Shown one piece after another: positions 9,777-34,007 of a DNA stretch of 64,000 bases (positions are counted from its first letter, which is position 1; every line of letters starts with the position of its first letter). The translations under genes were made by a program, and so were the position numbers. Under the pieces are notes generated by a model, which was not told the origin of the DNA, made no database searches, and saw nothing but the letters and a program-made list of their open reading frames with translations. The DNA is from Nitrospinota bacterium (lineage in GTDB: Bacteria; Nitrospinota_A; UBA7883; JACRLM01), in contig JACQXA010000004.1 in NCBI GenBank assembly GCA_016208975.1, positions 248,001 to 312,000 on the forward strand, in the 5' to 3' direction.

Positions 9777-10085
9777 ATGCCCAAATTAGTTCCAAGCGAA
9801 GACGACCGGGGTAAACGCCCCAAGAGAAGAAGAAGAAGGGCCGACGCCGTAGAAGAGACTCCCAAAGATGTGGGCGACAAAGCCGTTGAGGTTGAAGGCA
9901 CCGTGCTGGAGGCGCTTCCCAACGCCATGTTCAAGGTGGCCCTGGAGAATAACTTCACCGTGCTGGCCCACGTTTCCGGCAAGATGAGGAAGTTTTTCAT
10001 CCGCATCCTTCCCGGGGACAAGGTGAAGCTGGAGCTTTCCCCATACGACCTTACCAGGGGCCGGATTACCTACCGCTACAAATAA
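9777..10085 (+). CDS. infA: Translation initiation factor IF-1 with basic N-terminal extension
   Basis: The C-terminal 69 residues (from [16 protein letters not shown]) are a complete IF-1 OB-fold domain ending in RGRITYRYK, which acts on the 30S subunit A site during initiation. IF-1 is normally about 72 residues; here about 33 extra residues precede the domain. They begin [10 protein letters not shown] and then carry a run of Arg/Lys. The start is supported by GAGGAG 4-5 bases before the ATG, and there is no equally good internal start. A bidirectional hairpin follows the stop. Confidence 0.93.
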
Positions 10086-10121
10086 AAAAACGGCGGCCCG
10101 TTTATGATAAACAGGCCGCCG
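10081..10121 (-). terminator. Terminator of the selenoprotein peroxiredoxin gene
   Basis: A GC-rich stem CGGCGGCC...GGCCGCCG (10091-10121) with extra inner pairing GTTTA/TAAAC is followed, on the minus strand, by a run of seven T residues. It lies 19 bases after the peroxiredoxin stop and just after the infA stop, so it probably ends both converging transcripts, with the T-run favouring the minus-strand one. Confidence 0.8.
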
Positions 10122-10139
10122 CAACCTTCGGCGGTTCCT

Positions 10140-10592
10140 CTACAAGTCCGCTAAAACCTTTGCGGCGTGTCCCGCGGCCTTAATGTTGTAATAGGTCTTG
10201 AATACCCTGCCCTCTTCGTCTATCACCACCGTGGAACGGATCGCGCCTTCGCTAACCTTGCCATAGTTGTTCTTTTCCCCCCATGCGCCGTAGTCCCGCA
10301 AGATTCCGCCTGAAGGGTCGGACAATAGCGTAAATGGCAGGTCGTACTGGCCGGCCCACTTTTTCAGGGCTTGGGGAGTGTCGCGGCTGGCTCCGGCGAT
10401 CACAGCGTTCTTCTTCCTGAAATCCTGTATAGCGTCCCGAAACTCGGTCGCTTCCGTGGTTCACCCGCTGGTGTTGGCTTTGGGGAAGAAGAACAACACC
10501 AGTTTTTTCCCCGCGAAATCTTTCAGGGTTTTAGTGGCGCCGTCCTGATCCAATAGAGAGAACGCCGGAGCTTTAGAACCTTCTTTCAACAT
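10140..10592 (-). CDS. Peroxiredoxin (BCP/PrxQ type) with in-frame UGA at the catalytic position, probable selenoprotein
   Basis: Read through one TGA (10463-10461), the frame gives a 150-residue thioredoxin-fold peroxiredoxin that would reduce peroxides. Residues 1-43 ([11 protein letters not shown] to [10 protein letters not shown]) and residues 45-150 (TTEATEFRD to KVLADL) are both intact. The UGA is codon 44, exactly where BCP proteins have the peroxidatic cysteine (PxxxTxGC). No other in-frame stop and no cysteine is present. GGAGG lies 8 bases before the ATG. A SECIS-like hairpin follows the UGA. A nonsense mutation of a Cys codon is the alternative, but the exact position and the hairpin favour selenocysteine. 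An ordinary gene caller would report only the part after the UGA. Confidence 0.88.
10431..10452 (-). promoter_or_regulatory. SECIS-like hairpin after the peroxiredoxin UGA
   Basis: In the mRNA the segment starting 9 bases after the UGA folds as AGCG, internal A, CCGA, loop GUU, UCGG, internal GA, CGCU. Bacterial SECIS elements lie inside the coding region, with the apical loop about 16-37 bases after the UGA and a G among the first loop bases. Here the loop starts with G 18 bases after the UGA. The fold was done by hand. Confidence 0.65.
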
Positions 10593-10614
10593 GGGCCTAA
10601 CCTCCAAAGATTTT

Positions 10615-32999: not shown

Positions 33000-34007
33000 G
33001 TGAAAAAAAACCGAGAACTGGCCATAATCCAAAAGGTTGAACGGCTTTTTGGCCCCCAAACGGTCAAACTCAAAAACCTGTCCATCGGCATAGGTGACGA
33101 TTGCGCCGCGTTCCGCCCACCGCCGGGAAAAGAAGTTCTCGTCACCACCGATTCGCTGGTGGAAAACGTCCATTTCCGCCAAGCGGGCCTGGATAGCCGG
33201 TTGTTGGGTATAAAAACCGCCATGGTCAATCTTTCAGACATTGCATCCATGGGCGGAACGCCAAAATACGCACTGCTGTCCATCATTCTGCCCGGTCATT
33301 TGGAAGAGCGATGTATAAACCAATTTCTGGCCGGGTTCCGATTTGCGCTGGATAAGTATAACTGCGGGGTTATCGGGGGGAATGTCTCATCTGGTAAAGA
33401 GGCTTCTTTCACGGTAACGGCCATTGGCGAGGTGGATAAGCGGCTGACGCTGAAACGAAACGGAGCAAGGGCGGGAGAACACATTTTTATCACCGGAACC
33501 CCCGGCGATTCGGCTCTGGGGTTTGAGGTATTAAATCGTAGAGGTAAAACACTGACTAAAGACGAAAAATACCTCGCCCGCCGCCATATGGCCCCCACCG
33601 CCCGGGTGGAATGGGGCCAAATAATAGCCAAAGAGCGGCTAGCCTCGGCCATGATAGATGTTTCCGATGGCGTGGGGCTGGACCTTGAACGGATGATGAA
33701 AGCTTCCAGCGCAAGGGCCGAGGTTTTTCTGGACAGGTTCCCCATGTCAGCTCCGGCGCGGAGGCTTCTTGAAAAACAAGGCCCTGGGTTGTGGCAAAAA
33801 ATCCTTTCCGGCGGGGAGGACTATGAGCTTATCTTCACCGTGCCGCAGGGCAGATTGAAAAAAACAGCCCGGCTAATCCGGGAAAAAAGGCTGACAGCCA
33901 CCTGCATAGGTCAGGTTTTGAATGGAAAACCAGGAGTGGCGTTCTTCGATGGAATGGGGAGAAAAGTGGAGTTAAAAAATAAAGGTTACCTCCATGGATC
34001 CATTTGA
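33000..34007 (+). CDS. thiL: Thiamine-monophosphate kinase
   Basis: Phosphorylates thiamine monophosphate to thiamine diphosphate, the last step of cofactor synthesis. The AIR-synthase-like protein has GIGDDCAAF, VTTDSLVENVHF, DIASMGGTPKYALLS and IDVSDGVGLDLERM, which are the metal- and substrate-binding landmarks. The 335 residues match ThiL. GTG with AAGGGG eight bases upstream was chosen; a TTG 23 codons earlier lies in the terminator hairpin. The yjbQ product, elsewhere in the window, is sometimes also linked to thiamine. Confidence 0.94.
   Translation: MKKNRELAIIQKVERLFGPQTVKLKNLSIGIGDDCAAFRPPPGKEVLVTTDSLVENVHFRQAGLDSRLLGIKTAMVNLSDIASMGGTPKYALLSIILPGHLEERCINQFLAGFRFALDKYNCGVIGGNVSSGKEASFTVTAIGEVDKRLTLKRNGARAGEHIFITGTPGDSALGFEVLNRRGKTLTKDEKYLARRHMAPTARVEWGQIIAKERLASAMIDVSDGVGLDLERMMKASSARAEVFLDRFPMSAPARRLLEKQGPGLWQKILSGGEDYELIFTVPQGRLKKTARLIREKRLTATCIGQVLNGKPGVAFFDGMGRKVELKNKGYLHGSI

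Follow-up and report, generated by a model that had tools for sequence, protein, structure and literature searches.

The window analysed here is a stretch of 64,000 nucleotides from a Nitrospinota bacterium (contig JACQXA010000004.1). It carries a peroxiredoxin gene (prx) with an in-frame TGA, predicted to encode selenocysteine (Sec), in the following setting (all coordinates refer to the window).

10592..10140, minus strand: predicted Sec-containing peroxiredoxin gene of the BCP/PrxQ type, ATG to TAG, 150 residues, Sec44
10461..10463, minus strand: in-frame TGA, predicted Sec codon 44 at the peroxidatic position (P37xxxT41xxU44)
10432..10451, minus strand: SECIS-like hairpin GCG-ACCGA-GUU-UCGG-GA-CGC, apical loop GUU at 10443-10441
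10601..10605, minus strand: ribosome-binding site GGAGG, read directly, 8 nt upstream of the ATG
10090..10122, minus strand: strong intrinsic terminator, 15-bp stem and T tract, directly 3' of the prx stop codon
10615..11838, minus strand: aspartate-aminotransferase-like gene aspC, upstream of prx
9777..10085, plus strand: IF-1-like gene, convergent neighbour kept across the order

The families of aspC and the IF-1-like gene were named by eye from the sequence. Translation confirms the 150-residue peroxiredoxin of the original prediction, with strand and coordinates right: the frame is interrupted once, by the TGA at 10463-10461 (codon 44), and closes with TAG at 10142-10140. ORF calling with table 11 recovers just an 87-aa piece after the UGA (10403..10140, GTG start), as had been expected of automatic annotation. 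The stop of aspC and the ATG of prx are separated by 22 nt on the same strand, and both genes are very likely cotranscribed, which adds to the original prediction. Among the relatives, aspC lies upstream of prx in L024, L025, L027, L029, L030 and the Cys form L031; no aspC showed up in the 1.5-kb flank of L026 or L028. The IF-1-like gene is found 3' of prx in every Sec relative of the order. A codon-usage scan of the window for further read-through TGA genes gave none convincing by eye; the higher-scoring candidates resembled either adjacent genes that share a frame or antisense readings of genes.

The protein matches PF00578 (AhpC-TSA) over residues 5-130 with 127.8 bits (E=3e-37), hence the domain extends across the TGA. 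In alignments, codon 44 falls on the peroxidatic Cys (Cp) of solved BCP/PrxQ proteins (Burkholderia 5enu, Xanthomonas PrxQ) and of Cys homologues, in agreement with the predicted active-site position. The homologue set consists of 114 distinct Cys forms versus 24 Sec forms, with Cys aligned at the UGA, so that the proposed check against Cys homologues is answered by a TGA paired with Cys at codon 44. The PxxxTxxU motif is present (P37, T41, U44), and Pro37, Thr41 and Arg119 do not vary across the alignment. With the TGA read as U the protein contains no Cys at all, as had been noticed before. The AlphaFold model has a pLDDT of 96 and superimposes on BCP/PrxQ structures with a TM of about 0.9; the best PDB matches are BCP/PrxQ by sequence as well as by fold. 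NCBIfam PRK09437 scores 130 bits, slightly below its cut-off of 140, and the PrxU equivalog NF040737 reaches 35.1 bits versus a curated cut-off of 270.

One could argue that the UGA is a real stop and that the downstream part is a separate short protein started at the internal GTG, given that the 87-aa table-11 ORF exists. However, the AhpC-TSA domain runs across the UGA, the first 43 codons are conserved as much as the remainder, and in the AlphaFold model each half alone would lack part of the fold. We thus consider a separate short protein highly improbable and treat the 150-residue frame as one peroxiredoxin.

Within the order nine genomes have a prx match, the window's own included, and in eight of them, from different genera, codon 44 is TGA. 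The seven other TGA forms are 55-66% identical to the window protein, and this recurrence shows that the TGA is due neither to chance nor to sequencing error. Three further genomes of the order, all draft (G001, G007 and G010), gave no prx match at the threshold used. We looked for decay and frameshifts in the close relatives and found conservation instead: the TGA is kept and dN is far below dS. Nei-Gojobori estimates for four pairs gave a dN of 0.15-0.30 for the part before the UGA and 0.28-0.33 for the part after it, with dS at or above 1.1 in all comparisons but one, that one being saturated. Judged from these codon comparisons, purifying selection acts on either side of the UGA wherever dS was estimable.

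The ninth genome (G004) carries a Cys ortholog, L031 (G004:C217:13300-13746), with TGC at codon 44 and a Cys at position +5, beside aspC. Neither SelA, SelB nor tRNA-Sec was matched in this 73% complete genome. Searches of class-mates outside the order with these three models found SelA, SelB and tRNA-Sec all absent, and codon 44 encodes Cys in all three of them where it was read. With Sec and Cys forms at one aspC-linked locus, this order provides a natural comparison for the question of why Sec is retained.

Outside the class, a first scan revealed 14 Acidobacteriota MAGs with TGA at the same codon (13 in one tight group, one gp18), and tRNA-Sec was found in 12 of these 14 genomes. Two further Acidobacteriota TGA forms (L134, L136) were found after the first scan. 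In the protein tree the Sec forms of the order cluster with support in a single group, to which L031 is sister. Sec must have been gained or lost two or more times among the rows of the tree, which is compatible with either direction.

A SECIS-like hairpin starts 9 nt past the UGA, with a G-first apical loop (GUU) 17 nt past it, and is present in 24 of 24 distinct Sec forms. When its six pairs were scored on 17 sequences, 98% of the cells were paired and five cells had changed on both sides. Sliding the hairpin partners against each other gave no slide near the observed pairing. Twenty Sec forms have A-U as the upper pair, with GAG-TTT, and the other four have G-C, with GGG-TTC (Fisher p=9e-5, kinship not corrected), whereby the change of the Phe codon (TTT/TTC) is synonymous. 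In L025 a lower pair moves from G-C to A-U through two synonymous changes.

Compared with synonymous resampling, folding is better in the Sec forms (mean z of -1.51, 23 of 24 below -1) and not in the Cys forms (mean z of -0.22, 11 of 72 below -1). On average 5.9 out of 6 pairs form in Sec forms versus 2.6 in Cys forms, where the lower stem is hardly ever paired. Ala54, whose codon supplies the 3' arm, is found throughout the Sec forms and only rarely in Cys forms. Taken alone, the 56-nt stretch of the window folds no better than shuffles (z=0.01), hence the SECIS claim rests on the comparison. Rfam searched over the locus at loose thresholds returned sub-threshold matches only, so no curated family covers the SECIS of the window. 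Based on the compensatory changes, several of them synonymous, and the absence from Cys forms, the hairpin after the UGA is a predicted bacterial SECIS element.

The original prediction had placed SelA, SelB, SelC and SelD elsewhere in the genome, and selA, selB, selD and tRNA-Sec are indeed all found. The genome of the window (G000; four contigs, rated 100% complete) encodes one SelA (509 bits), one SelB (345 bits, above the curated cut-off), one SelD (354 bits) and one tRNA-Sec (77 bits, anticodon TCA, above the Rfam gathering score). The selD gene has a TGA at its own active-site codon (KAGG-U-GAKL), which makes SelD a second selenoprotein of this genome:

G000:C4:1005397-1006353 (locus L018:1318-2505), minus strand: selD with in-frame TGA and a G-first hairpin 3' of it

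A selD-like frame of the AIR-synthase family in the window itself (33075-33776) scores far under the SelD cut-off and is perhaps HypE or a relative. Formate dehydrogenase is the usual main selenoprotein; the formate dehydrogenase-like matches of G000 have no in-frame TGA. Judging by these matches, that main selenoprotein may be missing although the Sec machinery is retained. Among the eight TGA-Prx genomes of the order, tRNA-Sec is found in eight, SelB in seven and SelA in six. SelA was not found in G002 and G009 (87-90% complete) and SelB not in G011 (81% complete). All three have tRNA-Sec, which suggests that the missed SelA and SelB are assembly gaps.

These data also bear on the reading as a pseudogene or an assembly error, in which the TGA would have arisen by nonsense mutation or by miscalling of TGC/TGT. 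The codon is indeed one base away from TGC and TGT, and a stop inside a known gene is the usual mark of decay. Yet the same TGA stands in eight genomes of different genera, the frame is intact downstream with purifying selection on both sides, and the full Sec machinery is accompanied by a covarying hairpin. Decay or miscalling, to which we assign a negligible probability, is refuted by the TGA being conserved in the order as well as in Acidobacteriota. A genome-wide reassignment of UGA, e.g. to Trp as in code 4, would likewise open the frame but is the least probable reading of all and is refuted by the adjoining aspC, which ends in TGA as an ordinary stop (10617-10615); in addition, the tRNA with UCA anticodon scores above the Rfam cut-off as tRNA-Sec, SelA/B/D are present, and Trp at the peroxidatic position is expected to kill the enzyme.

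Taken together, the window gene almost certainly encodes a selenocysteine-containing BCP/PrxQ-type peroxiredoxin, selenium in the product being predicted from the sequence. The machinery, the conserved TGA and the SECIS-like hairpin support the selenoprotein originally proposed. SelB with Sec-tRNA would bind the hairpin, leading to insertion of Sec at the UGA. The selenolate of Sec44, held by Thr41 and Arg119, would then be oxidised to a selenenic acid while reducing its substrate, H2O2 or an organic hydroperoxide, to water or an alcohol. The positions where a resolving Cys would be expected in an atypical 2-Cys enzyme (Cp+5 or helix alpha3) are occupied by Thr49 (+5) and Ala80 (Cys84 in XcPrxQ). 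As the window protein has no resolving Cys, an external thiol (thioredoxin, glutaredoxin or a low-molecular thiol) would have to reduce the selenenic acid, as in a 1-Sec peroxidase. It is not the only peroxiredoxin of the organism, since a typical Cys AhpC (L163) is also encoded in the genome.

The lack of Cys is shared by 23 of the 24 Sec forms, whereas 91 of the 114 Cys forms, a set heavy in Curtobacterium, have a Cys at +5 (resolving-Cys contrast, Fisher p=2e-12, uncorrected for kinship). Codon 49, where a resolving Cys usually sits, falls within the SECIS stem and reads NCC in 23 of 24 Sec forms. The stem over codon 49 may partly explain why that Cys was lost. We rejected a strict incompatibility between the SECIS and Cys at +5: the Sec-Prx of Acidobacteria gp18 (L118:3001-3453) retains Cys49 at +5, and its hairpin may still pair G16 with C26. 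For the window protein, our best inference is a 1-Sec cycle that relies on an external thiol. More tentatively, and with considerable doubt, there might be a lineage-wide 1-Sec PrxQ subfamily with a SECIS stem running over the resolving-Cys codon, such that gain of Sec goes along with loss of Cys and with a shift from an internal-disulfide to an external-thiol cycle. The overlap provides a testable link from an RNA signal to enzyme mechanism; searches by term, with partial coverage of the literature, did not bring up a report of it.

Sec-containing peroxiredoxins with a TxxU motif (PF00578/COG1225) are described from the Sargasso Sea, GOS and a 2006 set of genome surveys (PMC1088965, PMC2398784, PMC1794560; dated 2005, 2008 and 2006, respectively). 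A review of 2026 (PMC13188914) also lists them and cites PrxU of Eubacterium acidaminophilum (Sohling 2001) as the experimental case. That the family was known is a second addition to the original prediction. The window protein shares with the TxxU family the domain, U at the peroxidatic position and a SECIS right after the UGA; it differs by its new lineage and perhaps by its complete lack of Cys. PrxU has the same motif type, but belongs to another subfamily by NCBIfam (the NF040737 model spans 233 positions, the window protein 150).

Xanthomonas PrxQ/BCP (5iiz, 3gkm) and Burkholderia 5enu resemble the window protein with a TM of about 0.9, 36% identity and Cp aligned with Sec44; however, they use Cys, and XcPrxQ resolves with Cys84 in place of Ala80. 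L031 shares the aspC locus and 55% identity, in contrast to which it has Cys codons at 44 and +5 and no sel genes found in its incomplete genome. Mycobacterium AhpE (1xxu), a 1-Cys peroxiredoxin, has a similar fold and a cycle without internal resolving Cys, but uses Cys and is more distant in sequence. The window gene hence adds a well-supported predicted selenoprotein, one that a table-11 ORF caller truncates, to a little-studied lineage, and is a member in a new lineage of a selenoprotein family already known since the 2000s.
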